From: Saccharopolyspora galaxeae
GTDB taxonomy: Bacteria; Actinomycetota; Actinomycetes; Mycobacteriales; Pseudonocardiaceae
Assembly: GCF_016526145.1 (NCBI RefSeq)
Contig: NZ_JADDUE010000012.1
Coordinates: forward strand, 62,001-126,000
Direction: 5' to 3'
DNA: 64,000 nt
A program made the translations under genes and the position numbers. How positions within the stretch are numbered: the first letter of the stretch is position 1; every line of letters begins with the position of its first letter. The notes under the pieces are model-generated. The model saw only the letters and a program-made list of their open reading frames with translations. It did not search any database and was not told where the DNA came from. Shown piece after piece: positions 25,474-45,990 of this stretch.

Positions 25474-25487
25474 TGGACACGTGTCCA
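25474..25487. promoter_or_regulatory. TetR-type operator, site 1 (TGGACA-CG-TGTCCA)
   Basis: Perfect 14-bp palindrome in the divergent region between the 406-residue gene and the TetR gene, 114 bp from the former's start. It is exactly 100 bp from site 2. The same palindrome recurs at 27375 and 41888. Confidence 0.75.
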
Positions 25488-25573
25488 GTGCGATGCGAAA
25501 AAATTCATCCGAATGCTCGCCGACCGGTGATTCCATCCCGTTGTTGTCGCCGGTGCAGGCGTGCAGTAGCGTC

Positions 25574-25587
25574 TGGACATGTGTCTG
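25574..25587. promoter_or_regulatory. TetR-type operator, site 2, overlapping the TetR start
   Basis: TGGACA-TG-TGTCTG, two mismatches from the perfect palindrome in the right arm. It overlaps the GTG start of the TetR gene (25581) and begins 1 bp after a TAGCGT -10-like box (25567-25572). This placement is what autorepression would need. Confidence 0.6.
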
Positions 25588-26162
25588 AAAACCTCGCGAA
25601 CGAATCCACCCGGCGCCGGTTGAACTCCCGGCAGCTCGACACCGTCCGGCGGCTGACCACCGCCGCGGTCGACGAGCTGCGGGCATCGGGCTACGCAGGG
25701 TTGACCGTGCGCAACGTCGCCTCCCGCGCCGGTGTCGCGCCTGCCACGGCGTACACCTACTTCTCCTCCAAGAACCACTTGATCGCCGAGGTGTTCTGGC
25801 GGCGGCTGCAATCCTTGGAACCGGTTCCCGAACAACCGCAGGATCCCGCCCGGCGGGTGGTCGAAGTGCTGCGGGAAATCGCGCTGGTGGTTTCCGACGA
25901 GCCGGAACTCGCGGTGGCCAGCACCACCGCGCTGCTCGGCGACGACCCGGACGTCCAGCACTTGCGGGCGCGGATCGGGCTGGAAATCCGCACTCGGCTG
26001 GAAACCGCGCTCGGCGAGCGCAACGAACCGGATGTCCTGAACGCGCTGGAATTCGCATGGTCCGGCGCCATGGTGCACGCCGGAATGGGTTACACCTCCT
26101 ACAGCAAAGTCGCCGACCGGCTCACCAAAACGGCCGAACTCGTGTTGCAGGGAAAATCCTGA
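25581..26162 (+). CDS. TetR-family regulator, probable controller of the P450/aldehyde dehydrogenase regulon
   Basis: A 193-residue repressor. The N-terminal HTH spans about residues 20-65 (LTTAAVDELRASGYAGLTVRNVASRAGVAPATAYTYFSSKNHLIAEVF). The C-terminal ligand domain is helical (VVEVLREIALVVSDEPELAVASTTALLG...). No Shine-Dalgarno precedes GTG at 25581, and TAGCGT ends 8 nt before it, so the message is probably leaderless. In Mycobacterium the equivalent spot beside cyp123/cyp51 (Rv0767c) also holds a small regulator-like gene; orthology is from memory. I infer that it binds the TGGACA-NN-TGTCCA sites and responds to a catabolic intermediate. Confidence 0.82.
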   Translation: MSENLANESTRRRLNSRQLDTVRRLTTAAVDELRASGYAGLTVRNVASRAGVAPATAYTYFSSKNHLIAEVFWRRLQSLEPVPEQPQDPARRVVEVLREIALVVSDEPELAVASTTALLGDDPDVQHLRARIGLEIRTRLETALGERNEPDVLNALEFAWSGAMVHAGMGYTSYSKVADRLTKTAELVLQGKS

Positions 26163-26171
26163 ACCCACGGT

Positions 26172-26290
26172 TCAGCGCACGTCGATCCCGCTGATCTTCC
26201 ACTGCTCGCCGATGCGCCGCGCGGAAACGCCCGATTGCGCCGACCCGGATCGGCGATCGGCGATGTCCGCCCGCGGGATCGGTGTGGATC
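26172..26290 (-). pseudogene. Possible C-terminal remnant of a lost gene
   Basis: A minus-strand frame without a start ends in GVSARRIGEQWKISGIDVR and a stop. This resembles the C-terminus of Mce-associated or NTF2-like proteins (a final strand 'W.ISG.DV'). It lies between convergent TetR and CMD genes. Too short for certainty. Confidence 0.3.
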
Positions 26291-26296
26291 TCCGCG

Positions 26297-26653
26297 CTAC
26301 GAGCGGTCGTGCTCGCCGATCGCCTTTTCGACGACCATGTTGAGTTTCGTGCCCAGCGGCCAGCCGACGTAGTGCGTCAGGAAAAGCGCGATCTCCCGGA
26401 GCTGGTCGGCGTCGAGTTCGGCGTTGCCGAGCGCGGCCCGCACCTGGATGTCGGCCACGTCGTCGAGGCCCTGCGCGGTCAGCGCGCCGAGCAGTAGCAG
26501 CCGCCGGTCGCGCAGGCTCAGGCCCGGCCGCGACCAGATGTCCGCGAACAGGTGGTCCACTGTGGTCCCGAAGAAGTCGCCGGGGCCGTCCTGCACCTCC
26601 CAGCCGTAGACCTGCTGCATCACGTCGAGTCCCTGTGCGCGCCGGGATTCCAT
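26297..26653 (-). CDS. Carboxymuconolactone decarboxylase (CMD/AhpD-like) family protein
   Basis: A 118-residue all-helical protein of the CMD family: LDVMQQVYGWEVQDGPGDFFGTTVDHLFADIWSRPGLSLRDRRLLLLGAL then LDDVADIQVRAALGNAELDADQLREIALFLTHYVGWPLG. The CxxC of AhpD is absent, so peroxidase activity is unlikely. The decarboxylase-like branch is closer, and Rv0771 of M. tuberculosis, in the cyp51 neighbourhood, is of the same kind. ATG at 26653 after GGAGGA. It follows the Ddn-like gene by 35 bp on the same strand, probably as one operon. Confidence 0.82.
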   Translation of the reverse strand: MESRRAQGLDVMQQVYGWEVQDGPGDFFGTTVDHLFADIWSRPGLSLRDRRLLLLGALTAQGLDDVADIQVRAALGNAELDADQLREIALFLTHYVGWPLGTKLNMVVEKAIGEHDRS

Positions 26654-26688
26654 GGACGCTCCTCCGTGGTCCGGTCCGTTGTGGACTC

Positions 26689-27183
26689 TCAGTCCAGTGG
26701 TTCGCAGACGATGATGGGGATCGTGCGCTCGGTCCAGGACTGGTAGGAGTTGAAGTCCGAGTACACCTCGAGCAGCTTCGGCCACAGTTCGGCGCGTTCG
26801 GCCTCGTCCGCCTCGTGCGCGCGCATCCGCAGCACCTGCTTGCCGATCTGGATCGTCACCTCCGAGTTGGCGGTGATGTTGTGGTACCAGCTCGGGTGCC
26901 GCGGCAGTCCGCCCTGCGAGGCGACCAGCACCACCCGGTCGCCGTCGCGCATGTACAGCAGGGGATTGGTCCGCTGCTGCCCGCTCTTGCGCCCGGTGGT
27001 GGTGAGCAAGCAGGTCGGCACCCCGCTTCGCAGTGCGCTGCCGACGCGCCAGGTCCCGCCGATGCGCCCGCCCGTCGCGCGGTACACGCGCACGTGCATC
27101 CGGGACATGATCCGCATCATCTTCGGCACCAGCGGCGAATCGAGCTGCGTCGGTCGCTTCTTGGCCGTGGGCTTGTCGGTCAC
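26689..27183 (-). CDS. Ddn-like nitroreductase (F420/flavin-binding split barrel)
   Basis: Deazaflavin-dependent nitroreductase family (PF04075), 164 residues. The pattern VLLTTTGRKSG (here LLTTTGRKSGQQRTNPLLYMRDGDRVVLVASQGG) followed by HPSWYHNITANSEVTIQIG is the family core for F420 binding. These proteins reduce nitro or enone groups, or act in quinone redox. GTG at 27183 with GGAGGA upstream. It reads away from the CYP123 gene, sharing a 330-bp intergenic region that contains operator site 3, and precedes the CMD-like gene. Confidence 0.85.
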   Translation of the reverse strand: MTDKPTAKKRPTQLDSPLVPKMMRIMSRMHVRVYRATGGRIGGTWRVGSALRSGVPTCLLTTTGRKSGQQRTNPLLYMRDGDRVVLVASQGGLPRHPSWYHNITANSEVTIQIGKQVLRMRAHEADEAERAELWPKLLEVYSDFNSYQSWTERTIPIIVCEPLD

Positions 27184-27374
27184 GACGAGTCCTCCTCGGC
27201 GGCCCCGGGTAGCCGGTGGCGGTGTCCGGTCAACGCTGGGGAGCCAGCGCGCATCGCACTGTAGTCACGCGTCTGTTCAGTTGTCCAGAACGTCGTTGGA
27301 GTGCGAAACCCGTGCTGTCCCACCGTTTCTCGCGTGTTCGCGGTTGTTGTGCGCAATCTAGCTGTAGTACTGTC

Positions 27375-27388
27375 TGGACAAGTGTCCG
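27375..27388. promoter_or_regulatory. TetR-type operator, site 3, before the P450 operon
   Basis: TGGACA-AG-TGTCCG, one mismatch from the perfect palindrome, 125 bp upstream of the CYP123-like gene. A TAGTAC hexamer (27365-27370) lies 4 bp upstream, so the site would cover the transcription start. Confidence 0.7.
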
Positions 27389-27513
27389 GTCTGGCGTTCC
27401 CGCTCCGGCAACCGCTCGAGCCAGTGCGCACGGCGCGGGACCGAAGGAGAGAAGCCGGGGCGAGGACTGTCGGCCCCTGGCCCCGTGGGCCCTGAACCCG
27501 TGGAGCGAACCCC

Positions 27514-28737
27514 ATGACGAACACCGGAGCTGCCGTGCCCGTCACGTTCAGTCCCTACGACTACGAGTTCCACGAGGACCCGTACCCGATCTACGCGCGG
27601 CTGCGGGACGAGGCGCCGCTCTACCGCAACGCGGAGCGCGGTTTCTGGGCGCTGTCCCGGTACGAGGACGTCGTCGCGGCCTTCCGGGACAAGGAGCGGT
27701 TGTCCAACGCCAACGGGGTGACGCTGGACCCCGCGGCCTACGGCCCGCACGCGCACAAGACGATGTCGTTCCTGGCGATGGACGATCCCCGGCACCACCG
27801 GATGCGTTCGCTGGTGTCCAAGGGATTCACGCCGCGCCGGGTCAAGAGCCTGGAGCCCCGCATCGAGGAGCTGACCCGGCTGCACCTGCAACCGGCGATC
27901 GAGCGCGGCGAGTTCGACTTCATCGCGGACTTCGCGGGCAAGCTCCCGATGGACGTGATCTGCGAGCTGCTGGGCGTGCCGGAGTCCGACCGCGACGCGC
28001 TGCGCGACCTCGCCGACACCGTGATGCACCGGGAAGAGGGCGTACCGGACGTGCCGGAACCTGCGGTGGCGGCCGCGTTGGAACTGGTGCAGTACTACGT
28101 CGAGATGCTCGCCGAGCGCAGGCGGCGCCCGACCGACGACCTCACTTCCGCGCTGCTGGCGGCCGAGATCGACGGCGACCGGCTCACCGACGAGGAGATC
28201 GTCGGGTTCCTGGTCCTGATGGTCGTCGCCGGGAACGAGACCACCACGAAGCTGCTCGGCAACGCCGTCTACTGGGCGTGGCGGAACCCGGAGCAGCTGG
28301 CCAAACCGATGGCCGACCCGCAGCGGGTGCCGGACTGGGTCGAGGAGACGCTGCGCTACGACACCTCCACCCAGGTCCTCGCGCGCACCGCGACGGAGGA
28401 CCTGCAGTTCCACGGGCGCACGGTGCCCAGCGGGGACTGCGTGCTGCTGCTGGTCGGCTCGGCCAACCGGGACGGACGCGCCTTCGCCGATCCCGATCGC
28501 TACGACCTCGACCGGGACACCGGGCGGCAGCTGGTCAGCTTCGGCAGCGGCACGCACTTCTGCCTGGGCGCGCACCTCGCCCGGCTGGAAGCCCGGATCG
28601 CGCTGACGCAGCTGGTGCACCGCGTGCGTGATTACGACATCGACGCCGAAGCCGCGCAGCGAGTGCATTCCAGCAATGTGCGCGGATTCGCCACCTTGCC
28701 CGTGACCGTGCGACCGCGCCGACTCCGGAAAGGTTGA
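27514..28737 (+). CDS. Cytochrome P450, CYP123-like
   Basis: Soluble bacterial P450 of 407 residues. Oxygen-binding I-helix motif LMVVAGNETTTKLL, ExxR in WVEETLRYDTSTQV, and haem loop FGSGTHFCLGAHLARLEARIAL with the thiolate Cys. The whole run from the N-terminus (YDYEFHEDPYPIYARLRDEAPLYRN) closely resembles remembered CYP123 (Rv0766c) of M. tuberculosis, which is likewise next to cyp51. Substrate unknown. ATG at 27514. The stop is 2 bp from cyp51, and electrons probably come from the ferredoxin encoded third. Confidence 0.9.
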   Translation: MTNTGAAVPVTFSPYDYEFHEDPYPIYARLRDEAPLYRNAERGFWALSRYEDVVAAFRDKERLSNANGVTLDPAAYGPHAHKTMSFLAMDDPRHHRMRSLVSKGFTPRRVKSLEPRIEELTRLHLQPAIERGEFDFIADFAGKLPMDVICELLGVPESDRDALRDLADTVMHREEGVPDVPEPAVAAALELVQYYVEMLAERRRRPTDDLTSALLAAEIDGDRLTDEEIVGFLVLMVVAGNETTTKLLGNAVYWAWRNPEQLAKPMADPQRVPDWVEETLRYDTSTQVLARTATEDLQFHGRTVPSGDCVLLLVGSANRDGRAFADPDRYDLDRDTGRQLVSFGSGTHFCLGAHLARLEARIALTQLVHRVRDYDIDAEAAQRVHSSNVRGFATLPVTVRPRRLRKG

Positions 28738-28739
28738 TC

Positions 28740-30286
<1,547 letters not shown>

Positions 30287-30323
30287 GGGCCGCCGCGGCG
30301 CCCGTCCGCCAATCGCGCTCGAC

Positions 30324-30374
30324 GAGTGAACGGCCTGCTGGTCCCACTAGATTGGACGAACAGTCCGTTCACTC
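30324..30374. repeat. 51-bp inverted repeat, copy A1
   Basis: Begins GAGTGAACGG and ends CCGTTCACTC; the interior reads GGTCC...ATTGGACGAACAG. First of two copies in the convergent gap between the ferredoxin gene and dnaE. See the other copies at 30388, 41919, 45841 and 45905. Confidence 0.85.
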
Positions 30375-30387
30375 ACCCGGTCTCCTG

Positions 30388-30438
30388 GAGTGAACGGACC
30401 GTTGGTCCGAATAGATTGGACGAACGGGCCGTTCGCTC
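30388..30438. repeat. 51-bp inverted repeat, copy A2
   Basis: Same length and plan as A1, 13 bp downstream in direct orientation: GAGTGAACGGACCGTTGGTCC at the left and GACGAACGGGCCGTTCGCTC at the right. It may double as a bidirectional terminator for the ferredoxin operon and dnaE. Confidence 0.85.
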
Positions 30439-30500
30439 GGAAAAGCGGGTGGGGAACACCGGGCAAGATCGCGTACGGAGCCGCCACGGTGGTCGGCTCG

Positions 30501-33500
30501 TCACGCCGATCCCGCGCGCTCGATCGCGATGCCGCGCACCGACTTGAGCTCGGAGACGAGCTCGGTGCAGATCTTCACCGGCCACTCCGGCAGTTCCAGC
30601 CGGGTGGTGCCCAATTGGACGTGCACCGGGGTGTCGCCGTGGTAGGCGCCCAGCGTGTTGCGCAGCTCCGCGACCGTGTCCTTGCTGATCTTCTTGTAGT
30701 CGGCGCGCAGCACCAGCGGCGGCTCGGAGCCAGGCTTGTGCTCGGCCGCGGTGATGTCCACCGGCACCGCGTCCGAGGCGAACACGCTGATCTCGCCCTC
30801 GCGCTCGTTGACCCGGCCCTTGACCGCGAGCGCGTTGTCCTCCACCAGGCTCTCGGAGAACATCTCGTAGGACTTCGGGAAGAACAGCACCTCGACGCTG
30901 GCGTCGAAGTCCTCCAGCGTGACGATCGCCCACGGCTGCCCGTTCTTGTTCAGCCGCCGCTGGATCCCCGAGATCATTCCGGCGATCTTGGCCTCTTCCT
31001 TGCCGCTGCCGGGCTCGCGTTCACCGCCGACGAGTTCGGCGATGCTGGTGTCCTGGTACGGCCGCAACAAGCGTTCGGCCCCGTCCAGCGGGTGCGCCGA
31101 GACGTACAGGCCCAGCATTTCGCGCTCGTAGGCCAGCAGCTGCTTGCGCGGCCATTCCTCCTCGGTGAACTGCAGGTGCGCCAGCGGTGAGGTGTCGTCG
31201 GCGCTCGCGGTGTCGTCGCCGCCGCCGAACAGGTCGAACTGGCCCATCGCCTCTTGGCGCTTGAGACCGATCACGGCGTCGACCGCCGCCTCGTGGTGCT
31301 GGGTCAGCGCCATCCGAGTCTGCCCGAGCGAGTCGAAGGCACCGGCCTTGATCAGCGACTCGATGACCCGCTTGTTGCACGCGGTGATCTCGATCTTGTC
31401 GAGGAAGTCGGTGAACGAGCTGAAGCGGCCCTTCTCCTGGCGCGTCTTGATGATCGACTCGACCACGTTCGCGCCGACGTTGCGGATCGCACCGAGTCCG
31501 AAGCGGATGCGGCCCTCCACGGCGGCGTGCCCGACCTCGGACTCGTTCACGTCCGGCGGCAGCACGCGGATGCCCATCCGGCGGCACTCGGACAGGTAGA
31601 CGCCGGTCTTGTCCTTGTTGTGCGCGTTGGCGGTCAGCAGCGCGGCCATGTACTCGGCCGGGTAGTGCGCCTTGAGGTAGGCGGTCCAGTAGGTCACCAG
31701 GCCGTAGGCGGCGGCGTGCGATTTGTTGAACGCGTAACCGGCGAAGGGCAGCACCGTCGCCCAGAGCTGGTCGATGGCCTCCTTGCGGTACCCGCGCTCG
31801 ACCATCCCGGCCTGGAAGCGCTCGAACTCCTGGTCCAGTACCGATTTCTTCTTCTTGCCCATCGCCCGCCGCAGCAGGTCGGCTTGCCCGAGGCTGTAGC
31901 CGGCCACGGTCTGCGCGATCGCCATGACCTGCTCCTGGTAGACGATCAGGCCGTAGGTGTCGCCCAGCACGCCTTCCAGCGGCTTGTCGAGGTCGGGGTG
32001 GATCGGCTCGACCGGCTTCTTGTTGTTCTTGCGGTCGGCGTATTCCAGGTGCGAGTTGACGTCCATCGGACCCGGCCGGTACAGCGCGACGCAGGCGACG
32101 ATGTCGCCGAACCGGGTCGGCGTCATGCGCTTGAGCAGCGACTGCATCCCGCCGCCTTCGAGCTGGAACACGCCGAGGCTTTCGCCGCGGCCCAGCATCT
32201 CGTAGGCGGCTTCGTCGTCCAGCGGGATGTCCAGCGGTTCGATCTCGGTGCCGTGGTTGGCCCGCACCATCCGCACGGTGTCGTCGATCGTGGTCATGTT
32301 GACCAGGCCGAGAATATCGATCTTGAGCAGGCCGACCGCCTCGCACTGCGGCCCGTCCCACCCGGTGATGATCTCGCCGTCGTCGCGCTTCCACAGCGGC
32401 AGCACGTCCAGCAGCGGCTCGCGGGAGATGATGTGCGCGCAGGCGTGCACGCCTGCGTTGCGGATCAGGCCTTCCAGACCGCGCGCGGTGTCGAAGATCT
32501 TGCCGATCTGCTGGTCGTTCTCGATCAGCGAGCGGACCTCGGCGGCCTCCTGGTAGCGCTCGTGCTCCGGGTCGACGATCCCGGACAGCGGGATGTCCTT
32601 GGCCGCGATCGGCGCGGGCAGCGCCTTGCTGAACTGGTCGGCGAGCTGGAAACCGGGCTGGCCGAGGTGCACGCGGGCGGCGTCCTTGAACGCCGCCTTC
32701 GTCTTAATCGTGCCGTAGGTGATGACCTTGGCGAAGTACTCCTCGCCGTACTTCTCCTTGGCGTAGGCGATGACCTCGTCGCGCCTGCGCTCGTCGAAGT
32801 CGATGTCGATGTCCGGCGGCGAGTCCCGCTCGGGGTTGAGGAACCGCTCGAACAGCAGGCCGTGCTGGAGCGGGTCGATGTCGATGATGTGCAGCACGTA
32901 CGACAGCAGCGCGCCCGCCGCCGAGCCGCGACCCGGCCCCACCCGGATGCCGTTGTTCTTGGCCCATCGGATCATGTCGCCGACGACCAGGAAGTACGAG
33001 CTGTACCCCTTCTCGGTGATGACCTTGAGCTCCCATTCGAGCTGGTCGCGGTATTCCTGGGTGAACCCGTCCGGATACCGGGTGGGGATGAATTCCTCGA
33101 CCTCGTCGCGCAGCACCTCGACGTCGGTGCGACCGGCCTGGATCTTCGCCTGCGGCATCCGGTTGGCCTCGGCGAACGCGTCTTCGTAGCCCTCGACCAT
33201 GTCGGTGATCCGCAGCGTGCTGTCGGCCGCGCCGGGCACCTCGGTGTCCCAGTACTCGCGCATCTCCGAGGACGACTTGATGTGGTAGCCATCGCCCTGG
33301 AACTTGAACCGGTCGGTGTCGGCCAGCATCGACCGGGTTTGCAGGCACAGCAACGCATCGTGCTGCCCGGCCTGATCGGCGGTCACGTAGTGGCTGTCAT
33401 TGGTCGCCACCGTGCGCAAATCGAGTTGCCGGGCGATGTCGACCAGATCGGCGCGGATGTTGCGCTCCATCTGGATGCCGTGGTCCATGACCTCGATGAA

Positions 33501-34082: not shown

Positions 34083-34399
34083 GCGGCCATCTCCGGAAGC
34101 GTCGGGTGGGCGGACAGCTGGCGCCGCAACTCTAGTCGCCCCACGCCGCGTGCTCGGAGAGCATCGGGCCCGTGTTGCTATCCGGCTACATCGATCCTGT
34201 GCGCAGTCGGTCCCGCCCGGCCGCCCCGGGCTCCGGCCGGGCACTCCTACTCGCTGTCTTGCGGCTCGTACGACCCTCGCCGCGGCGCTGTTGATCGACG
34301 AGGAGCGGAGGCGGTCGGCACCTCCTGTCGGGGGAGGTTGCTGGCAGGTGCCGACCGGCCGACCCGAGCGGCAGCGACGGGGAGAACCGCTCGCCCGGG
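34083..34399. other. Intergenic region upstream of dnaE
   Basis: About 315 bp between dnaE and the broken XRE gene, both on the minus strand. GGAGA lies about 7 nt before the dnaE start. Open frames here run on from dnaE and are not credible. No other element was recognised. Confidence 0.4.
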
Positions 34400-35407
34400 T
34401 CACCGCCCTGCTTGCAGGGCGGGGTCTTCTCTGCCCTGCGAACAGGGCGGAGCTTTTTCGCGTTCGTCATGGGATTCGCAGGCAATCGGGGCATTGGCGG
34501 AGCCGCTCGCAGCGCGGTGCTGAACCGCAAATAGCGTCTTTCGGCATTGAAGATTATGTCCAGAGCGCACCAATGTGCGGCGCAGATCCACTCCGAGGCT
34601 CAAGGCAGTTGCTTGCATGATCGGGAGGCTGAAGCTGGATTGGACGTGGCGATAGCCCGGGCCAAGCTTCCGGGCGATCTCGTACGCGGACTCCCAATAC
34701 CGCCAGGCGTCCCCATGCCGCCCTTTCCGGGCGCATGTAAGGGCGTTTTCCGCCCGTAGCGCACCGACCATCCCGCGCCAGTCAGCAGCCGCCGACTCCA
34801 CGTAGGGCTCAAGCTGAGCGGCACCGTCATGTGCGACCGAGATCGCCTCGTCCCAACGCCCGGACTCGCGCAGCGCTTGCACCAGTGCCCATGCGCCCGC
34901 CGCCATCGCGTACGGGTCGTCAGCGTCCTGTCCCTCGGTGACCGCTCTATCAGCGACGAGCCACACCAGCTCAGGAGCGGGTTGGTAGGCAACGTAGAAA
35001 TCCGCCAACTGGTAGACGCCCGCCAAGACCCGTCGTGCGTTGCGTCGTTCTTCTCCCCATCGCGCCCGCACAGCACGCTGCGCATCGCGAATGAGATTCG
35101 GAAGAACGGCACCGACCTGTGTCCGGTGGTCCGGTGACGAGTGGCGAAGATGCCACGCTGCAGCAAGCCGCTCGCGCAGGTGCGCCAGGTCCACCGGGCG
35201 CGTATCCGAGCTGAGCCGGTAGTCCATCAAAGCCGCCCGGACGTCGTTGAGCGCGCCGTGCGCGGGGCCTATCGCGTACCGGGAGATCGAGACTGCTTCT
35301 CCATTACCGGTCAGCTCGGCGAGGTCGCTGATGTCGAGCGCACCGGCGATCTTGGTGAGCATGTGGAGCTTCGGGGTCTGGAGCCGACCGGACTCGACTG
35401 CCTTCAC
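34400..35407 (-). pseudogene. XRE-family regulator, truncated at both ends
   Basis: Homologous to the large actinobacterial XRE family that partners DUF397 proteins. The frame upstream of the first usable start (GTG 35407) still encodes TNAPAPISRRVLGGFVGRSPEW, which is family-like but lacks about a dozen residues between SRRV and LGGF, where the first HTH helix should be, and it has no start codon before the in-frame TAG near 35500. The middle (LQTPKLHMLTKIAGALDI ... GPGYRHVQSSFSLPIMQATA) is well preserved. After about 34570 similarity stops and translation runs through hairpins (PPCSQGREDPALQAGR), so the C-terminal ~100 residues are lost. Confidence 0.65.
34403..34450. terminator. Two adjacent hairpins inside the XRE remnant's 3' end
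   Basis: CCGCCCTGC-TT-GCAGGGCGG (34403-34422), and then GCCCTG-CGAA-CAGGGC (34433-34448), which is flanked by CTCT / GGAG and followed on the plus strand by CTTTTTCG. They look like a non-coding terminator or repeat now read as protein. Confidence 0.55.
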
Positions 35408-35543
35408 CCATTCCGGCGAACGGCCGACGAACCCACCAAGTACCCGACGGCTTATCGGCGCAGGCGCATTCGTTCTCGGAATACAGGCGCTTGCCCACTA
35501 GCATCCTGGAGATTGCAAGCCACCCGTACGGAGGAGTCGCACC

Positions 35544-35729
35544 ATGAGCGCAGGTATTCATTGGCGGAAATCGAGCCGGAGCGGGCAGGGCAACAACTGT
35601 GTCGAGGTCGCGGACGCCCGGTTGGTCCGGGACAGCAAGCTCGGTGCGTGGTCGCCGGTGCTGGAGGTGTCCGCGAAAGCGTTCAGCGACTTCATCAACG
35701 CCGCCAAAGATGGCCGCTTCGACGGTTGA
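35544..35729 (+). CDS. DUF397 protein
   Basis: A 61-residue member of the DUF397 family: IHWRKSSRSGQGNNCVEVADA ... VRDSK ... FSDFINAAKDGRFDG. These small proteins are nearly always encoded beside an XRE regulator and some pairs behave as regulator/antagonist modules in streptomycete development. Here it is divergent from the broken XRE gene (34400-35407), so it may now be an orphan. ATG at 35544 after GGAGGAG. It ends 30 bp before the ABC ATPase gene. Confidence 0.9.
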   Translation: MSAGIHWRKSSRSGQGNNCVEVADARLVRDSKLGAWSPVLEVSAKAFSDFINAAKDGRFDG

Positions 35730-35759
35730 GGTCGCGGATCGAGCGCTGGAGGGAGTCGG

Positions 35760-36497
35760 ATGCGGACCGCTGAGCTGAGCGATCTGACCGTGCACGTCGA
35801 CACGGGCCGGTGGAACGAGACGGTCCTGGACTCGGTGCACCTCGCGGTGCCCGCGGGCCGGATCACCGCGCTGCTCGGCGAATCCGGCTGCGGCAAATCC
35901 ATGGTGGCCGCGGCGCTGACGGGTCTGCTCCCCGCGGTCGCGCGCAGTACCGGGGACGTGTGCATCAACGGGACGGCGGTGCGGGACGAGCAGCAGTGGC
36001 GAAAGCTCCGTGCCGGAACCGTTGGCCTGGTGCCGCAATTCGGGGTCGAGGCGTTCGCGGCGGAGAAAACCGTTGGCGCGCAACTATTCGAGCGGCAACG
36101 GCTGCATGGCGGCCGGAGCGTCGAGGATGCCTGCGCGGCGGCGCTTTATCCGGCCGAGGCATTCGATCTGCATCCGGAGCAGCATTCCAGCGGGCAGATC
36201 CAGCGGGCCGCGCTGGCCGCGGCGTTGCTGCCCGATCCCGATCTGCTCATCGTGGACGAGCCCAGTTCGTCCCTCGATCTCGGCACTGCCTACGAGGTGT
36301 GGGCCAATCTGCGCGCCTACGCCGATTCCGGAGCTGCGGTGCTGACCATCACCCACGACGTCGCGCTGCTCATCGAGACCGGAGCCGCCGATCAAATCGT
36401 CTTCATGCGCGATGGCCGCACCATCACCGCGGGTTCACCGGCCGAGGTGCGTGCTCTCGAAGATCCTTACGTGCGGGGCTTCTTTCACCAGCTCTGA
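35760..36497 (+). CDS. Orphan ABC transporter ATPase (dipeptide/nickel type)
   Basis: A 245-residue ATP-binding subunit. Walker A LLGESGCGKSMVAAAL, Q-loop GLVPQFG, signature HSSGQIQRAALAAALL (the usual LSGGQ altered to HSSGQ), Walker B LLIVDEPSSSLDLGTAYEVW and switch His in TITHDVALL. The layout resembles DppD/OppD without their C-terminal oligopeptide extension. No permease, binding protein or second ATPase lies nearby, so its membrane partner is unknown. It may work with a remote transporter or be a non-transport ABC protein. The 3' end overlaps the convergent hypothetical gene by 13 bp. Confidence 0.8.
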   Translation: MRTAELSDLTVHVDTGRWNETVLDSVHLAVPAGRITALLGESGCGKSMVAAALTGLLPAVARSTGDVCINGTAVRDEQQWRKLRAGTVGLVPQFGVEAFAAEKTVGAQLFERQRLHGGRSVEDACAAALYPAEAFDLHPEQHSSGQIQRAALAAALLPDPDLLIVDEPSSSLDLGTAYEVWANLRAYADSGAAVLTITHDVALLIETGAADQIVFMRDGRTITAGSPAEVRALEDPYVRGFFHQL

Positions 36498-36970
36498 GGT
36501 TTGCGCTGACCGGCCTCCTCCGCTTCGTGCTTGGTCTGCCTGCACGGTCCGAGCACCGCTTCCACCCGGAGGTGGACTCGGTATGTCAACTGCCGCGGTA
36601 AGCCCGGTTCCGGTTCGGTGTGCGCGAGCACGAAATCGCGGCGGAGGCTGTCGCCGCGCTGGAGCACCGGCGCATCCGCCGCGCGATCCCGTTCCAAATG
36701 CGCCTCGTCCGCGACCGTGCCGACGTTGTGCGGCGGGTCGGCGTACGGGATCCGGACCTCGTAGCGATGCGCGTACGTGCGGGTCAGCTCATCCACCCAG
36801 TCGATGGCTTCATCGGGGCTGCGCAGGCAGCGCGGCTCGATCTCCGGCAGGTTCGCGGCCGGTTCCTCGGCAGGATCGGAAGAGGTTTCGGGTCTGATCT
36901 CGGCCGATCCGTGCCAGTGCACCCCGAGCATCGCCCAGCGATCCGGATCGTCCAGATGCGGCTCGTCCAC
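36485..36970 (-). CDS. Hypothetical protein
   Basis: A 161-residue protein that I do not recognise. It is hydrophilic and acidic with an even spread of charged residues and no signal or membrane segment (DEPHLDDPDRWAMLGVHWHG, DEAIDWVDELTRTYAHRYEV, RVHLRVEAVLGPCRQTKHEAEE). GTG at 36970 is chosen for AGGA 6 nt upstream; the frame is open to 37090. It is convergent with, and overlaps, the ABC ATPase gene. Confidence 0.55.
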   Translation of the reverse strand: MDEPHLDDPDRWAMLGVHWHGSAEIRPETSSDPAEEPAANLPEIEPRCLRSPDEAIDWVDELTRTYAHRYEVRIPYADPPHNVGTVADEAHLERDRAADAPVLQRGDSLRRDFVLAHTEPEPGLPRQLTYRVHLRVEAVLGPCRQTKHEAEEAGQRKPQSW

Positions 36971-37151
36971 GTTGCGTCCTAACTCGCTGGATGAGCGCGC
37001 AATGTATCGGAATCCGCGGATTGGGCCGCACGGGGGTGCGTATTCCGCCGAAAAGGCGAGGGTGTTTCCAAAACGAACTTGTCGAGTCATGGGTTTCCGG
37101 GGAAGTTCATTTTGGAAATGCCGGGCTGAACCGCTCAGCGGACCCGCCCGC

Positions 37152-38660
37152 TCAAGACTCCGCCATGTCCGCGACCGCCAGCGACGCGAACACCATCGCC
37201 GTGCCGAGCGGAACCCCGGGCGCGGGATAGACGGCCCCGGTCATCGAGGCCGATGAGTTCCCGGCCGCGTACAGGCCGCCGATCGCGCTGCCGTCACCGC
37301 GCAGCACCCGGCCGCGCGCATCGGTGACCAGACCACCCTTGGTTCCCAAGTCCGAGAGCACGAACTTCGCCGCGTAGTACGGCGGCTGGTCGATCGCGAC
37401 CAGCGGTTCGCCGCCCGCGAAGAACGCGTCGTATTCGTCCTCGCCGCGGTGGAAGTCCGCGTCCGCACCGGCGGCGGCGAACTCGTTGAAGCGCTCGACG
37501 GTGCCGGTCAAGGCCTGCGCGGGGACGCCGATGTCCGCGGCGAGTTCGGCGATCGTGTCCGCGCGGAACCGGATTCCGGCTCGCACGTGCTCCTCCGGAT
37601 CGCCCTCCGGCATGGCGATCGCGGGAAGGCCGCCGCCTTCGCGGGAGTCGAACACGAACCACGACGGGATGCGTTCGGCAGCGGCGGCCATGGCGCGCCC
37701 GAACCGGTCGTAGGGGAGGCATTCGTTGGCGTAGCGGCGGCCGGTCGCGTCGACCATGATCCCGCCGCGGAAGCCCAGCGCGAACGAGCCGCCGCCGTCC
37801 GGCTGCGCCAAGCCGGGGCAGAACCAGCCCTGGTCGAGCAGGTCGGTGGCCGCACCCAGCCGGGCCGCGGCGAAGATCGGCTCGCCGCGGTTCGTGCCCG
37901 CCGGAGCCATCGTCCACCGCGCGTCACCCGGCACGCCGTGCTCGTCGCGCAGCTGCGCGTCGCCCTCGAAACCGCCTGCTGCCACGAGGATTCCGCGCTC
38001 GGCCGCGATCCGGACGGATTCGCCGTCCACCACCGCGTCGACACCGGCCACTCGCCCGTGCTCCTGGTGGAAACCGACGACGTTGTGTCCTGTTAGGACA
38101 TTTCCGCCCGCGCGCACGAACGCGGTGAGCAGCCGGGCGATCAGCGCTTGCCCGCCGCTGAGCTTGCTCCGCCCCGGCCTGCCTGCGCGGTCGCGTTCCA
38201 CCGGCGGCCGGACCAGCTCGGCGACCTCGGCAGGCAGCTCGTCCCGGCGGATGTCGACGGGCTGGATCGACCGCCCGAGCCCGACCCGGCCCGGCGCGTC
38301 GAAGTACTCCGGGAACGGGATCCACTCGAACTCCAGCGCCGGATCGGCCTCGAACGCCTTGACCAGCCGCGGCGACTCGGCCAGGAACGCTTCGACCCGG
38401 CCGGAGTCCGGCGCGTCGAGCAGGCTTCCCAGGTAGGTGCGCGCGGAGTCGGTCGAATCGGCCAGCCCGGCGCGCTGCTGCACCTCGGAACCGGGCAGCC
38501 AGCACGCACCGCCGGAGTACGCGGACGTGCCACCGACCCGCGCCGTGCGCTCGAGAACGGCGGTCGACAACCCCGCCTTGGCGGCGAGGTAGGCGCCGGC
38601 CAGCGCGCCACCGCCGGAACCGACCACGACCACGTCGAACGAATCAGGTGTGTGCTGCAC
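37152..38660 (-). CDS. FAD-dependent dehydrogenase, 3-ketosteroid delta-1-dehydrogenase family
   Basis: A 502-residue FAD_binding_2 flavoprotein. The N-terminal dinucleotide motif is VVVGSGGGALAGAYLAAKAG, followed by GGTSAYSGGACWLPGS, typical of KstD-like enzymes. The C-terminal block GGLYAAGNSSASMTGAVYPAPGVPLGTAMVFASLAVADM matches the family's substrate/FAD closing motif. KstD enzymes insert a 1,2 double bond into 3-keto-steroid rings; related ones act on other cyclic ketones, so specificity is not settled. GTG at 38660. The gene lies 61 bp from the TetR gene on the same strand, and a second KstD-like gene follows that one. Confidence 0.82.
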   Translation of the reverse strand: MQHTPDSFDVVVVGSGGGALAGAYLAAKAGLSTAVLERTARVGGTSAYSGGACWLPGSEVQQRAGLADSTDSARTYLGSLLDAPDSGRVEAFLAESPRLVKAFEADPALEFEWIPFPEYFDAPGRVGLGRSIQPVDIRRDELPAEVAELVRPPVERDRAGRPGRSKLSGGQALIARLLTAFVRAGGNVLTGHNVVGFHQEHGRVAGVDAVVDGESVRIAAERGILVAAGGFEGDAQLRDEHGVPGDARWTMAPAGTNRGEPIFAAARLGAATDLLDQGWFCPGLAQPDGGGSFALGFRGGIMVDATGRRYANECLPYDRFGRAMAAAAERIPSWFVFDSREGGGLPAIAMPEGDPEEHVRAGIRFRADTIAELAADIGVPAQALTGTVERFNEFAAAGADADFHRGEDEYDAFFAGGEPLVAIDQPPYYAAKFVLSDLGTKGGLVTDARGRVLRGDGSAIGGLYAAGNSSASMTGAVYPAPGVPLGTAMVFASLAVADMAES

Positions 38661-38721
38661 CGGTCTTCTCCTACATCGACTCGGCCCGGGCTCGCCGGGC
38701 GCAGGCGGATCGAGGGCGGAT

Positions 38722-39324
38722 TCAGGACAAGTAGGCGGTCACCGCGTCGCTGAGACCGCGCTTCGCGTCGTCGATGTCCAGGTAGGTGCTCAGGTCCTGC
38801 TCGCCGTGCAGCCCGCGCATCGCGCCGGGCAGCAGCGCCCGCACCCGGCGCAGCTTGACCTTGTCCACGGCGAGCCCGTCGAAGGCGCGCTCGCAGGCTT
38901 CGTTCCAACTGGCGTCCCAGGCGGCGAGCGCTTCGGCGGTGCGGGGGAACTCGGCTTCCAACTCGCCGCGGTCGCGCGGCAGCGCCAGCCGCAGGTGGTG
39001 GATCGCGCGCGCACCGGCGGAATCCAGCGCCCGCCACAGCATGTCGACGACGGCGCCGACCCGGTCCGGCAGCGCGGCGTGCTGCGGCGGCAGCAGCGGA
39101 TCGCTGCGTTCGGAGATGTGCGCCAGCACGGCGGCCCACAACCCGTCGGCGTCGCCGAACTGGTGCTGCACGGTGCCCCAGGTGACGCCCGCCTCGCGGG
39201 CGATGAGGTTCGCGCTCACGCCTTCCGAACCGTCGGCCAGGCAGCGGATGGCGACTTTCAGCAGCGTGCGCCGCGTCTCCAGGCCCCTGCGGTTGAGCCG
39301 CGTGCCTTTCGCGCTAAGAGTCAT
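38722..39324 (-). CDS. TetR-family regulator
   Basis: A 200-residue regulator. HTH at about residues 15-60: LETRRTLLKVAIRCLADGSEGVSANLIAREAGVTWGTVQHQFGDADGLWAAVL. The C-terminal domain has no recognisable ligand motif. ATG at 39324 follows GAGGTGG; the open frame continues upstream but overlaps the neighbouring gene's promoter. It sits between two KstD-like flavoprotein genes on the same strand and probably controls them. I see no clear operator palindrome in the short gaps. Confidence 0.85.
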   Translation of the reverse strand: MTLSAKGTRLNRRGLETRRTLLKVAIRCLADGSEGVSANLIAREAGVTWGTVQHQFGDADGLWAAVLAHISERSDPLLPPQHAALPDRVGAVVDMLWRALDSAGARAIHHLRLALPRDRGELEAEFPRTAEALAAWDASWNEACERAFDGLAVDKVKLRRVRALLPGAMRGLHGEQDLSTYLDIDDAKRGLSDAVTAYLS

Positions 39325-39355
39325 GCGGACCACCTCGCAAGCTGCACCTCCGGGC

Positions 39356-40798
39356 TCACGCCGAGCCCGCGGCGTGCAGCCCGGCGCGGCGGCCGAAGAA
39401 CGAGCCTTCGCCCAGCTGGACGCCGGAACAGTAGCCGTTGCCGTCCTGCGCGATGTTGGACGCGCAGGCCCCTGCGGCGTAAAGGCCGGGCACGACCGAG
39501 CCGTCCGCGCGCTGCACCTGCGCATCGACGGTGGTCCGCATCCCGCCCAAGGTGAACCCCGCGTACAGCGCGTGCCCCAACCGCAGGTCGAAGACCGCCC
39601 ACGGGCCGGTGTCCTGGGCCGCCAGCCACTTCGGGCTCTTGTGGAAGTCCGGGTCCTCGCCGCGCGCGGCGTGCTCGTTGTAGCGGGTCAGCGTCTTCAC
39701 CAGCGAGCCGGACGGCAGGTCGAGCCCGGACTCCATCTCCTCGACCGTCTCGAAGCCGTCCAGCAGCGGAACCAGCGGGTCCTTCGGCTTCGCCTCGTGC
39801 TCGACGTCGACGATCAGGTAAGCCGTCGAATCGGGCTGCGCCAGCACGTGATAGCTGGTCCGCGCGTGGTAGGAGTCCTCGGCGACGAACCGCTCGCCGA
39901 GCTTGTTGACGATCAACCCGGTCGCCAGCTGACCGGGCGGGTAGAACGGCGCGGTGATGAACGGCTGCGCCATGTGCTTGAGCTCGGCGCCCGCTGCCTC
40001 GCCCAGCTTGATCGCGGTCCCGTCGTCGTAGCTGGAGCCGAGCGTGAACAGCTTGGCTCCCAGCGCGGGGGTGTGCTCGGCGACCATCCGCTCGTTCATC
40101 ACGAACCCGCCGGCGGCGAGCACCACCGCGGACGCCCGGACCAGGCCCGTTTCGGAGAACCGCCGCCAAGCCAGCCCGAGCACGCGGCCGTCCTCCTGCT
40201 GCACCAGCGCGGTCGCGCCGGTGTCGAAGCGGACCTGCACCCCCGCCTGCTCGATCTGCTCGCGCAGCAGGTCCATCACCAGCTTGGCGCCCTCGGTGTC
40301 GCCGGGCACCGGGACCTTGTGCCCGCGCGGTGCCGCAACGGCCTGTTCGCGGAACGGCCAGACCTGCTCGTTCCCGGTGTACATCAGCCCTTCGGTGCCG
40401 GGCTGGATCACCGCCTTCTCGGCGAAGTAGGAGCGCTCGAAGTGGACACCGAGCGACTCCAGCCAGTCGAAGTGCGCCACCGAGCCGTCGCAGTAGGCGC
40501 GGATCTTGTCCGGCTCCGGATCGCGGGACACGGCCAGCAGGTACTTGTACATCTCCTCCGGCGAGTCCTCGTGCCCGGTGGCCCGCTGCACCGCGGTACC
40601 GCCGCCGAGGTAGAAGTGCCCGCCCGCCATGGCCGTTGTGCCGCCGTGCGTCGCGGCGCGTTCCAGCAGCAGCACCCGCGCACCCGCGCGCGCGGCTTCC
40701 AGCGCGGCGCAGCCGCCCGCGATGCCGAAGCCCACCACGACGACGTCGAACTGCTCGGCCTGCTCCGGGATGGCGGACGGGGGTAGGACCTCGGGCAC
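39356..40798 (-). CDS. FAD-binding dehydrogenase, KstD/fumarate-reductase-like
   Basis: A 480-residue flavoprotein. FAD motif VVVGFGIAGGCAALEAARAGARVLLLER, then THGGTTAMAGGHFYLGGGTAVQ, RGHKVPVPGDTEGAKLVMDLL, VVLAAGGFVMNERMV and C-terminal GLYAAGACASNIAQDGNGYCSGVQLGEGSFFGRRAG. Of the family of mycobacterial 'FAD-binding dehydrogenases' (Rv0785 kind) found in steroid and cyclic-ketone catabolic regions. GTG at 40798. It is divergent from the LLM oxidoreductase gene, with a 208-bp shared promoter region. Confidence 0.82.
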   Translation of the reverse strand: MPEVLPPSAIPEQAEQFDVVVVGFGIAGGCAALEAARAGARVLLLERAATHGGTTAMAGGHFYLGGGTAVQRATGHEDSPEEMYKYLLAVSRDPEPDKIRAYCDGSVAHFDWLESLGVHFERSYFAEKAVIQPGTEGLMYTGNEQVWPFREQAVAAPRGHKVPVPGDTEGAKLVMDLLREQIEQAGVQVRFDTGATALVQQEDGRVLGLAWRRFSETGLVRASAVVLAAGGFVMNERMVAEHTPALGAKLFTLGSSYDDGTAIKLGEAAGAELKHMAQPFITAPFYPPGQLATGLIVNKLGERFVAEDSYHARTSYHVLAQPDSTAYLIVDVEHEAKPKDPLVPLLDGFETVEEMESGLDLPSGSLVKTLTRYNEHAARGEDPDFHKSPKWLAAQDTGPWAVFDLRLGHALYAGFTLGGMRTTVDAQVQRADGSVVPGLYAAGACASNIAQDGNGYCSGVQLGEGSFFGRRAGLHAAGSA

Positions 40799-40911
40799 GC
40801 TGACTCCCTTCCGCGCGGTGCGTTCGTTCCGGTCGGACCGGTTTGCTGACTGCTCCGGTTTCCGGGCGGTGCCAAGTCGTTTCCTTGGGCAGCCACCAGA
40901 CGCTTGCTAGG

Positions 40912-40931
40912 GTCATTGAAGCACCTATGAC
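40912..40931. promoter_or_regulatory. Weak inverted repeat in the flavoprotein/LLM divergent region
   Basis: GTCAT-N10-ATGAC within GGTCATTGAAGCACCTATGA; possibly an operator for the adjacent divergent genes. Five-base arms only. Confidence 0.3.
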
Positions 40932-41006
40932 AATGCGCCGTCGATCCGTCGCCTCCCGATGGGCCTCGCCACCGGGTTCCGGCTGCTGCTGCGGAAAGGA
41001 ATTCCC

Positions 41007-41855
41007 TTGCGACACGGCATAGTGCTGTTCACCAGCGACCGCGGGATCACCCCGGACCGGGCCGCGAAAGCCGCCGAAGAGGCCGGGTTCGACACCTTCT
41101 ACGTCCCGGAGCACACCCACATCCCGATCAAGCGGGAGGCCGCGCATCCCGGCACCGGCGGCGCGGAGCTGCCCGACGACCGCTACCTGCGCACCCTCGA
41201 TCCGTGGGTCGGGCTGAGCGCGGCCGCGGCGGTGACCTCCCGGATCCGGCTGGCCACGGCGGTGGCGCTGCCGGTGGAGTCCGACCCGATCACGCTGGCG
41301 AAGACGATCGCTTCGCTGGACTGGCTCTCCGGCGGCCGGGTCACGATCGGTGCGGGCTTCGGCTGGAACACCGACGAGCTCGCCGACCACCACGTCCCGG
41401 CAGGCAGGCGGCGCACCGCGCTGCGCGAGCACGTCGAGGCGATGCGGGCGCTGTGGACGCAGCAGGAGGCTTCCTACTCCGGCGAGTTCGTCCACTTCGG
41501 ACCGTCGTGGGCCTACCCGAAGCCCGCGCAGGCGCACGTCCCGCTGCTGATCGGGGCGGGTGCGGGGCCGAAGACGTTCGCCTGGATCGCCGCGCACGCG
41601 GACGGCTGGATGACCACTCCCGCTGAGCGGGACGTGCGCGCGAACGCGGACCGGCTGCGCGCGGCCTGGGCCGCGGCGGGACGTCCCGGTGCGCCGGAGA
41701 TCCACGTGCTCGCGACCGCGAAACCCACTCCTGAACTGCTCGGGGAGTGGGCGCAGGCCGGTGTCACCGAAGCGATCTGGGGCTTGCCGGACAAGCCCGC
41801 CGACGAGGTGGTGGCCTTCCTGGGGCGGCACGCGGCCCGCCTCGGCATCGCCTGA
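41007..41855 (+). CDS. LLM-class F420-dependent oxidoreductase
   Basis: A luciferase-like monooxygenase-family protein of 282 residues, of the 'TIGR03619-like' F420 group. N-terminal HGIVLFTSDRGITPDRAAKAAEEAGFDTFYVPEHTHIP, the core LATAVALPVESDPITLAKTIASLDWLSGGRVTIGAGFGWNTDELADHHV, and the cofactor region PLLIGAGAGPKTFAWIAAHADGWMT. Reduces or oxidises an unknown substrate with coenzyme F420 (or FMN). TTG at 41007 follows AAAGGA by 6 nt; the in-frame ATG at 40959 has no such site. It lies upstream of the operator-controlled aldehyde dehydrogenase operon but is not part of it. Confidence 0.86.
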   Translation: MRHGIVLFTSDRGITPDRAAKAAEEAGFDTFYVPEHTHIPIKREAAHPGTGGAELPDDRYLRTLDPWVGLSAAAAVTSRIRLATAVALPVESDPITLAKTIASLDWLSGGRVTIGAGFGWNTDELADHHVPAGRRRTALREHVEAMRALWTQQEASYSGEFVHFGPSWAYPKPAQAHVPLLIGAGAGPKTFAWIAAHADGWMTTPAERDVRANADRLRAAWAAAGRPGAPEIHVLATAKPTPELLGEWAQAGVTEAIWGLPDKPADEVVAFLGRHAARLGIA

Positions 41856-41887
41856 TCCCTTGTGCGGGGCCGGGCCCGCACGCATAA

Positions 41888-41901
41888 TGGACACCTGTCC
41901 A
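41888..41901 (+). promoter_or_regulatory. TetR-type operator, site 4, before the aldehyde dehydrogenase operon
   Basis: TGGACA-CC-TGTCCA, perfect 14-bp arms. CATAAT (41883-41888), a strong -10 match, abuts and overlaps its first base. It lies 107 bp before the SnoaL-like gene. Same consensus as the sites at 25474, 25574 and 27375. Confidence 0.75.
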
Positions 41902-41918
41902 ATCAACTGTCCGCCCGT

Positions 41919-41969
41919 GAGCGAACGGACCGCTCGTCCCAATGGATCGGGCGAACGGTCCGTTCACTC
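41919..41969. repeat. 51-bp inverted repeat, copy B
   Basis: GAGCGAACGGACCGCTCGTCC ... GGGCGAACGGTCCGTTCACTC. It sits between operator site 4 and the first gene, so it would be transcribed into the 5' leader and form a long hairpin. Confidence 0.85.
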
Positions 41970-42008
41970 GATGCTCACGCCGGCGCGAGCACAGGCTGGA
42001 GGGGCCCG

Positions 42009-45842: not shown

Positions 45843-45891
45843 GCGAACGGACCGTTCGTCCAATCTAGCGGGACCAACAGTCCGTTCACCT
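45841..45891. repeat. 51-bp inverted repeat, copy C1
   Basis: Starts within the TGA of the HIBADH-like gene: GAGCGAACGGACCGTTCGTCC ... GGACCAACAGTCCGTTCACC. In this copy the central segment is inverted in sense (AATCTAGCGGGACCAAC) relative to A1 (GGTCCCACTAGATT), showing that the element is present in both orientations. Confidence 0.85.
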
Positions 45892-45904
45892 GGGAAGCCG
45901 CGAG

Positions 45905-45955
45905 CAGTGAACGGACCGTTCGTCCGAACAGATCGGGCGAACATGCCGTTCGCTC
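45905..45955. repeat. 51-bp inverted repeat, copy C2
   Basis: CAGTGAACGGACCGTTCGTCC ... GGGCGAACATGCCGTTCGCTC, 13 bp after C1. The same 13-bp spacing separates A1 and A2, so the element occurs as a dimer at two loci. Confidence 0.85.
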
Positions 45956-45990
45956 CGGAACCGCACCACCGGAACGGAAGAAGGCGTGAC

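Follow-up and report, generated by a model that had tools for sequence, protein, structure and literature searches.

In a stretch of 64,000 nucleotides from Saccharopolyspora galaxeae (contig NZ_JADDUE010000012.1, positions 62,001 to 126,000; hereafter the window), a gene for a TetR-family repressor and a palindrome, TGGACANNTGTCCA, very probably form a regulon with one regulator and one operator type, judging from the sequence and its relatives. The regulator gene (25581..26162, + strand; 193 residues, GTG start; PF00440 at 2.7e-12, with the TetR_N domain scoring 46.7 bits against a cut-off of 24) is called tetR below. Copies of the palindrome lie at tetR itself and ahead of two operons, one encoding a cytochrome P450 of the CYP123 type, CYP51 and a ferredoxin, the other a SnoaL-type protein, an aldehyde dehydrogenase (ALDH), a short-chain dehydrogenase (SDR) and a protein resembling 3-hydroxyisobutyrate dehydrogenase (HIBADH). 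Taken as a whole, a regulon for the catabolism of 14-methyl sterols under this TetR is the explanation that we favour and regard as likely.

Palindromic sites at tetR and two operons

Five copies of the pattern TGGACA-NN-TGTCCA, each recorded without a strand, are placed at these genes. Operator 1 (25474..25487, TGGACACGTGTCCA) is exact and lies between tetR and the gene for a 406-residue protein, operator 2 (25574..25587, TGGACATGTGTCTG) has two mismatches and lies over the tetR start codon, and operator 4 (27375..27388, TGGACAAGTGTCCG), with one mismatch, precedes the CYP123-CYP51-ferredoxin operon, as the exact operator 5 (41888..41901, TGGACACCTGTCCA) does the SnoaL-ALDH-SDR-HIBADH operon. 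The original prediction had listed these four, with the mismatch counts given here, and had noted that one of them overlaps the start of the TetR gene; all four are present, and the site at 25574 does span the GTG codon at 25581, an arrangement that is probably leaderless. A fifth copy had been overlooked, namely the candidate weak operator 3 (27274..27287, TGTTCAGTTGTCCA, two mismatches) on the side of an F420-type reductase gene. The sites at 25474 and 25574 thus form a pair spaced by 100 bp and those at 27274 and 27375 a pair spaced by 101 bp, each in a divergent intergenic region, and the site at 41888 is single.

The positions of these sites relative to putative -10 hexamers, all on the + strand, are consistent with repression. 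At tetR, TAGCGT (25567..25572) ends 1 bp before operator 2, as had been proposed. For the CYP123-CYP51-ferredoxin operon, TACTGT (27368..27373), which ends 1 bp before operator 4, is preferred over the TAGTAC named earlier because its phase equals that found at tetR and in the relatives. At the SnoaL operon the hexamer CATAAT (41883..41888) overlaps operator 5 by one base and does not lie ahead of it, as had been stated.

The window itself indicates which copies can be interpreted. With up to three mismatches the palindrome is not enriched (10 copies against 16.65 expected, with 95 of 100 shuffled sequences reaching at least 10), and for this reason only the good copies carry meaning. Across the whole genome of 6,397,171 bases the exact palindrome occurs twice, both times in the window, and the relaxed form YRGACANNTGTCYR five times, four of them in the window, its reversed control being absent. 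At up to one mismatch there are five copies genome-wide, three in the window, and the reversed control pattern likewise occurs five times. The presence of four of the five YRGACANNTGTCYR sites inside a 16.4-kb span has a binomial probability of about 2e-10, or about 8e-8 when any span of that length is allowed, figures that are a guide only because YRGACANNTGTCYR was picked after the sites of relatives had been seen. At the three places elsewhere in the genome (two other one-mismatch palindromes and one other YRGACANNTGTCYR site; L004, L005 and L126), none of the 14 query genes taken from the window was found within 1.5 kb. The original prediction had depended on a motif that is neither frequent nor randomly placed genome-wide, and the genome scan, with both exact copies and four of five relaxed sites here, bears it out.

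A search that started from the motif instead of the regulator gave a more qualified picture. Among 120 genomes of the family, 17 exact-palindrome loci were taken (L127-L143), one for each of the other genomes with a match and not one for every place at which the palindrome occurs in those 17 genomes. Ten of the 17 match at least one query gene at E 1e-8 (seven with at least 49% identity) and seven match none; the exact palindrome alone is therefore not diagnostic. Exact palindromes with the centre GC, AC or GA occur in six loci of these other family genomes (L128, L129, L133, L139, L141 and L142), five of which have no query gene within 1.5 kb and the sixth of which, L133, has only distant P450 and ferredoxin matches. 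These copies are possibly the sites of another regulator, or chance.

Conservation of the sites and of the TetR

The relatives named here are the best 80 of 551 confirmed relatives of the TetR in a scan of named genomes, on which all counts out of 80 rest; their loci span 14 genera and 8 families among those with readable titles and are not independent of one another. In 75 of the 80 loci the core GACANNTGTC is found between -80 and +10 of the start of the TetR match, where the remainder of these loci would predict about 0.35. The phasing recurs as well, with a TA...T hexamer no more than 12 bp upstream of the tetR site in 71 of these 75 loci, compared with 2 of 75 that have one on its other side. 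For the second operon, a core site lies between -400 and +90 of the extrapolated ALDH start in 30 of 31 loci (Rv0768-type matches with 55% identity or more and a start within the locus), compared with 5% of random pieces of equal length, and the sole miss, L063, is a locus in which the ALDH gene sits directly behind the CYP51 block. Over the 1.51 Mb of the 80 loci the exact palindrome occurs 28 times; 179 permuted half-sites average 0.12 occurrences and reach a maximum of 4. Among the 34 family genomes scored for both features, the exact palindrome is present in 4 of 4 with a close TetR and in 2 of 30 others (Fisher 3e-4).

Gene order in the relatives differs from that in the window. CYP123 and CYP51 mostly trail tetR within a single run of genes and seldom carry a separate site (5 of 38 and 8 of 38 cases, respectively), all 13 of these being Nocardia loci with a differing gene order. 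The 406-residue protein has its own site within 490 bp around its start in 5 of 25 relatives; in the other 20 its gene comes after SnoaL (19) or after the second SDR (one, L085) in an operon of the CYP123 type. Inclusion of this gene in the regulon, as originally proposed, is consequently the weakest link, with the five relatives speaking for it and the other 20 lacking the site.

Closer comparison comes from two Saccharopolyspora genomes. In G074, of the same species, all five sites are identical to the letter, the first four of them unchanged within intergenic DNA of 92% (240 bp, at operator 1) and 90% identity. In Saccharopolyspora sp. HNM0983, the closest named relative among the matches listed, the TetR is 75% identical and the 4.2 Mb contain three YRGACANNTGTCYR sites, all on one contig: in the intergenic region between tetR and the 406-residue gene, before a CYP123-CYP51-ferredoxin-luciferase-like run and before SnoaL-ALDH-SDR-HIBADH, with the second SDR further on. 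The sites of the CYP and SnoaL operons lie about 14 and 18 kb from the tetR site, and the tetR start has a one-change core only. HNM0983 is a second split-operon case that repeats the arrangement from which the regulon was first proposed. Because the palindrome accompanies tetR in relatives, and because the only three relaxed sites found in HNM0983 precede the same transcription units, it is most likely that a single TetR represses its own gene and the two operons. Control by this TetR of its own gene and of the CYP123-CYP51-ferredoxin and SnoaL-ALDH-SDR-HIBADH operons thus gains support from the relatives' sites and from the mycobacterial literature discussed below.

The regulator stands alone in its genome, where no second close relative was found and the next best match is a KstR-type gene at E 2.1e-7. 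The best curated NCBIfam model for the TetR is KstR (NF033703), at 46.9 bits against a cut-off of 280, and a KstR above that cut-off (324.6 bits) sits elsewhere in the genome. In a tree built by a quick method, with support from the Shimodaira-Hasegawa-like approximate likelihood-ratio test only, the TetR groups with that of HNM0983 (90%), and a weaker fork (87%) adds Haloechinothrix, Actinomadura, Spirillospora, Nonomuraea and another Streptosporangiaceae protein; 18 of the 21 rows of this fork adjoin CYP123/CYP51.

Several other genomes hold two or three TetR relatives of the same operator type: G007 (L036, L037, L044), G042 (L038, L039), Nocardia alba (L114) and Rhodococcus spelaei (L188, L189). 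Cross-talk between regulons is likely in such genomes. In R. spelaei (G149) and R. qingshengii (G154) the whole block is found elsewhere in the genome, beside a second TetR of 58% and 54% identity, respectively. Of the four relaxed sites in Actinomadura formosensis (G147), the three that were fetched have no gene of the block and the fourth is the site of its own tetR. A candidate sister regulon is seen in ten mycobacterial loci (L077, L078, L088, L091, L100, L102, L103 and L105-L107), in which the TetR is 60-62% identical and keeps the site at its own start, no close CYP51 is linked and an exact TGGACACATGTCCA, of the same operator type, lies 3.8-3.9 kb upstream of the TetR gene.

Probable sterol chemistry, proposed mechanism and rival readings

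The content of the two operons points to a substrate. The CYP51 (28740..30092, + strand; ATG start assumed, searched from 28734) scores 767 bits to 1e9x, the Rv0764c CYP51, the next group (7jj1/6mi0) following at 432 bits, and the M. tuberculosis enzyme accepts lanosterol, dihydrolanosterol and obtusifoliol for demethylation (PMC6469627). The same source terms the role of CYP51 unclear in mycobacteria, which are without a complete sterol biosynthetic pathway. The SnoaL/NTF2-type protein that opens the second operon (42009..42593, + strand; SnoaL_2 below cut-off) is a probable bacterial 8,14-sterol reductase (8,14-Bsr), to judge by its residues: Y36, Y42, Y77, Y79, D136 and D139 correspond to Y37, Y43, Y78, Y80, D133 and D136 of the Methylococcus capsulatus enzyme, an enzyme described in 2026, in a match made by spacing only and with an offset of four residues ahead of the two aspartates. 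Five of these pocket residues are kept in 42 of 42 SnoaL rows and Y36 is Tyr in 40, the exceptions, L044 and Haloechinothrix alba (L062), both having the Phe that is also reported at this position in H. aidingensis (PMC13277303). According to that paper, the M. tuberculosis homologue acts on the product of CYP51, homologues frequently adjoin CYP51 and ferredoxin genes, and a Mycobacterium is cited that turns lanosterol into an 8(14)-unsaturated C19 steroid. From homology and this published biochemistry we think it likely that CYP51 and 8,14-Bsr catalyse consecutive steps. The pathway's substrate, left unnamed in the original prediction, is on the strength of these two assignments revised to a sterol, probably a 14-methyl one; that a 14-methyl sterol is the natural substrate we favour by a little.

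From the sites, their rarity, their phasing to the -10 hexamers, their conservation and the enzyme families, all read directly from the sequence, we infer repression, ligand and reactions as follows. The TetR would be a ligand-released repressor acting on TGGACANNTGTCCA, whose bound dimer, placed directly behind the -10 hexamer or across its last bases, would cover the transcription start and block RNA polymerase. Repressed in this way would be tetR itself, CYP123-CYP51-ferredoxin and SnoaL(8,14-Bsr)-ALDH-SDR-HIBADH, and probably also the divergent genes for the 406-residue protein and the F420-type reductase. The two operons would be a single pathway in two pieces, in which CYP51 and its ferredoxin strip the 14alpha-methyl group from a sterol, leaving an 8,14-diene, the SnoaL-type protein then reduces and isomerises this diene, and the dehydrogenases and the second P450 oxidise the product onward, into steroid catabolism. 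The inducer would probably be a sterol or an early product of the pathway; steric repression at the transcription start, lifted by a pathway sterol, appears to be the simplest reading of the site positions.

Parts of this system have precedents. In Mycobacterium sp. VKM Ac-1817D, 14 operons adjoin copies of a palindromic motif X, which was matched to that of Rv0767c; 12 of these operons rise more than 3-fold on phytosterol, and one copy is found close to where the TetR gene G155_05115, the Rv0767c orthologue, begins (PMC6593523). The regulator/motif pair is therefore probably not new, a motif X regulon of Rv0767c having already been predicted in mycobacteria. The Rv0767c motif itself had been reported at E 1.2e-14, which did not reach the threshold set there (PMC4482099 Table 2), and the Rv0767c sites found by chromatin immunoprecipitation are rich in GAC and GTC (PMC10312376); from this enrichment and from its position, motif X may be the present palindrome. 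The two regulons share a TetR, a palindrome near the tetR start, P450s, and aldehyde and short-chain dehydrogenases, and here a palindrome precedes both the CYP123/CYP51 block and the block of the Rv0768-type ALDH. They differ in that the block of the window is split by about 12 kb, with a second operon that opens with an 8,14-Bsr-type gene, and in that only four or five sites were found here as against 14 operons. In the 8,14-Bsr system CYP51, ferredoxin and the NTF2-fold reductase often occur together in Mycobacteriales and others (PMC13277303), whereas in the window the two genes belong to separate operons that share one operator; the words TetR and operon are absent from that paper's main text. 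The literature, as far as its accessible parts go, yielded no account of this regulon outside mycobacteria, and within the same bounds the new elements are its spread to other families, its split architecture and the tie between two operons and consecutive sterol reactions.

KstR and EilR offer more distant parallels. KstR is likewise a TetR-family protein of sterol catabolism, and KstR chains are the best solved-structure matches of the present TetR; it differs by the score noted above, far under the KstR cut-off, and the KstR operator differs from this palindrome. KstR-type control of the block was considered and rejected: TNNAACNNGTTNNA, which we take to be a KstR-like operator pattern, occurs seven times in the window at up to one mismatch against 3.98 expected, and its sole exact copy, at 19082, is far from the block. 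EilR of Enterobacter lignolyticus (PDB 5VL9) is a TetR repressor whose consensus operator contains TGGACACGTGTCCA and which controls a multidrug efflux pump (PMC6127294). If residues 16-78 and 10-72 match without gaps, the EilR contact Arg32 would correspond to the invariant Arg44 here, and His47 would be Thr59; the two proteins are distant (E 2.3e-6).

Several observations weigh against the regulon as drawn or against its sterol role. Once mismatches are tolerated in the 80 loci, the palindrome loses its distinction, occurring 52 times at up to one mismatch, when one other permuted half-site occurs 53 times, and 156 times at up to two, when seven permuted half-sites are commoner. The exact core is missing at tetR in 5 of the 80 loci (L045, L062, L114 and L124 have a one-change core, expected in about 3% of stretches, and L093 has none). 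Within the locus stretches, 8 of 42 CYP51 loci have no SnoaL gene and 6 of 40 SnoaL loci no CYP51. Conservation of the site at 41888 in G074 says nothing, because the DNA around it is 99% identical. The CYP123-adjacent TetR of the mycobacterium-like G042 (L039) is 50% identical and sits on a long, deep branch, its best match in the genome of the window being the present TetR, and because several genomes hold multiple such TetR relatives the site alone does not identify the regulator. In the literature, the M. tuberculosis Rv0762c-Rv0771 block is listed under a different putative regulator, Rv0576 (PMC10470581). Bragin and colleagues suggest that plant-sterol side-chain oxidation is the role, from phytosterol induction, and report no increase for most of the genes in M. 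smegmatis mc2 155 or R. jostii RHA1 (PMC6593523). Mutations of D136 and Y80 in 8,14-Bsr were without effect (PMC13277303).

Had the palindromes arisen by chance in a genome rich in GC, and were the regulon a pattern made by eye, the scarcity of copies with up to three mismatches relative to shuffled sequence and the equal frequency of the one-mismatch reversed control would be as expected; the good copies, however, are rare and clustered, recur at the corresponding promoters of 75 of 80 and 30 of 31 loci, and are phased to the -10 hexamer, so that we regard chance as extremely improbable and effectively refuted, unless shared ancestry alone preserved the sites. A second possibility is that the operators are real but bound by another protein or by competing TetR paralogues, with this TetR not, or not solely, in control. 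The genomes with two or three relatives of one operator type, the use of an operator with the same 14 bases by the remote EilR and the naming of Rv0576 for the mycobacterial block all speak in its favour, but the next best TetR match in this genome is of the KstR type and the site tracks the start codon of this very TetR, and we give it a low probability.

The same operators could also work differently, with the TetR as an activator or with looping between sites 100 bp apart in place of a simple steric block. The two pairs at 100 and 101 bp suit such a scheme; they are equally accounted for by the divergent promoters, and in 71 of 75 relatives the sites lie at or just past the -10 hexamer, where a steric repressor classically binds, which makes this variant very improbable. 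The most probable of the alternatives keeps the regulon and changes its role, to plant-sterol side-chain oxidation or another steroid, with CYP51 used for a step other than 14-demethylation. Besides the proposal of Bragin and colleagues, the open specificity of several regulon dehydrogenases argues for it; against it stand the 14-demethylating activities of the M. tuberculosis CYP51 cited above and the correspondence of the co-regulated SnoaL-type protein to 8,14-Bsr, whose substrate is the CYP51 product. We judge this role unlikely, though well within reach, and retain the catabolism of 14-methyl sterols under TetR repression as the preferred explanation.

Genes of the two blocks and implications

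The divergent 406-residue protein (24140..25360, - strand; TTG start assumed) has no assigned function. It is conserved in relatives and has no Pfam or NCBIfam match at 1e-3; its profile found no match among PDB sequences, and DUF6125 appeared only weakly (best 0.0034, in 3 of 24 members). The predicted structure is confident (mean predicted local distance difference test, pLDDT, 90.9), with a best Foldseek E of 0.13 and YslB, TRAPP subunits, H-NOX and the MopR sensor at the top, a hint, though not proof, that the modelled fold binds a ligand. Its invariant positions include C111-G112, C129-H130 and H154-R155.

Between tetR and the CYP operon lie genes for a carboxymuconolactone-decarboxylase-family protein (26297..26653, - strand; PF02627), which trails HIBADH in many relatives, and for an F420H2-dependent quinone-reductase-like protein (26689..27183, - strand; PF04075 at 2.4e-45). 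The operon itself starts with a cytochrome P450 (27514..28737, + strand; PF00067), for which CYP123 is the label of the original prediction and which stands beside CYP51 in relatives, and ends after CYP51 with a single-cluster Fe-S ferredoxin (30092..30286, + strand; PF13459, PF13370, PF06902). Downstream of the 8,14-Bsr-type gene, the second operon continues with the Rv0768-family ALDH (42590..44074, + strand; TIGR04284, 809.6 bits, cut-off 775), the SDR (44236..44985, + strand; NF005853, 405.9 bits, cut-off 303) and the HIBADH-like protein (44982..45842, + strand; TIGR01692, 148 bits, below cut-off). A second SDR follows (45991..46779, + strand; PF00106; ATG start assumed, searched from 45907), whose counterpart in many relatives is found between CYP123 and CYP51, and a luciferase-like enzyme (40959..41855, + strand; PF00296) ahead of operator 5 has an HNM0983 counterpart that trails the ferredoxin gene.

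Two steroid dehydrogenase genes lie between the two blocks, in keeping with a sterol substrate, but are not placed in the regulon: a 3-ketosteroid delta1-dehydrogenase of the KstD type (37152..38660, - strand; 551 bits to 4c3x) and a 3-ketosteroid delta4-(5alpha)-dehydrogenase type (39356..40798, - strand; 354 bits to 4at0). Neither the palindrome nor the KstR-like pattern was found in the intergenic stretches upstream of these genes (37152-40798), and the palindrome nearest to the delta4-(5alpha) gene start, at 41888, is about 1.1 kb off. In a comparison set of 89 loci, relatives of the delta4-(5alpha) enzyme (E up to 1e-40) occur in 18 and those of the KstD-type enzyme in 4. The other genes beside this pair, among them dnaE and an ABC ATPase, have no visible link.

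A dispersed intergenic palindromic repeat of about 50 bp, of the type GAACGGACCGTTCGTCC...CGAACGGTCCGTTCACTC, is also present in the window (30310-30445, 41917-41973 and 45842-45960), with one copy in the 5' leader of the SnoaL operon. Its core GAACGGNCCGTTCNNTC occurs, at up to one mismatch, 159 times forward and 163 times in reverse genome-wide, counts that partly represent the same copies, whereas the reversed control gives 4 and 0. In appearance the repeat resembles a small mobile element or a hairpin.

More broadly, and tentatively, CYP51 of actinobacteria may belong to a dedicated catabolic regulon for 14-methyl sterols (of the lanosterol or cycloartenol type, often 4-methyl as well) that is separate from the KstR cholesterol regulon, in which one sterol-sensing TetR, through TGGACANNTGTCCA, would unite split operons and control a new sterol-handling protein of 406 residues; we put this wider generalization at somewhat under an even chance. 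A conserved operator that ties CYP51 to an enzyme acting on the CYP51 product, to a set of dehydrogenases and to the 406-residue protein puts names to parts of the pathway, and the TetR regulon offers a handle for finding the natural substrate of the CYP51 pathway. The arrangement in S. galaxeae further suggests that one operator can hold a pathway together after its genes have been separated.

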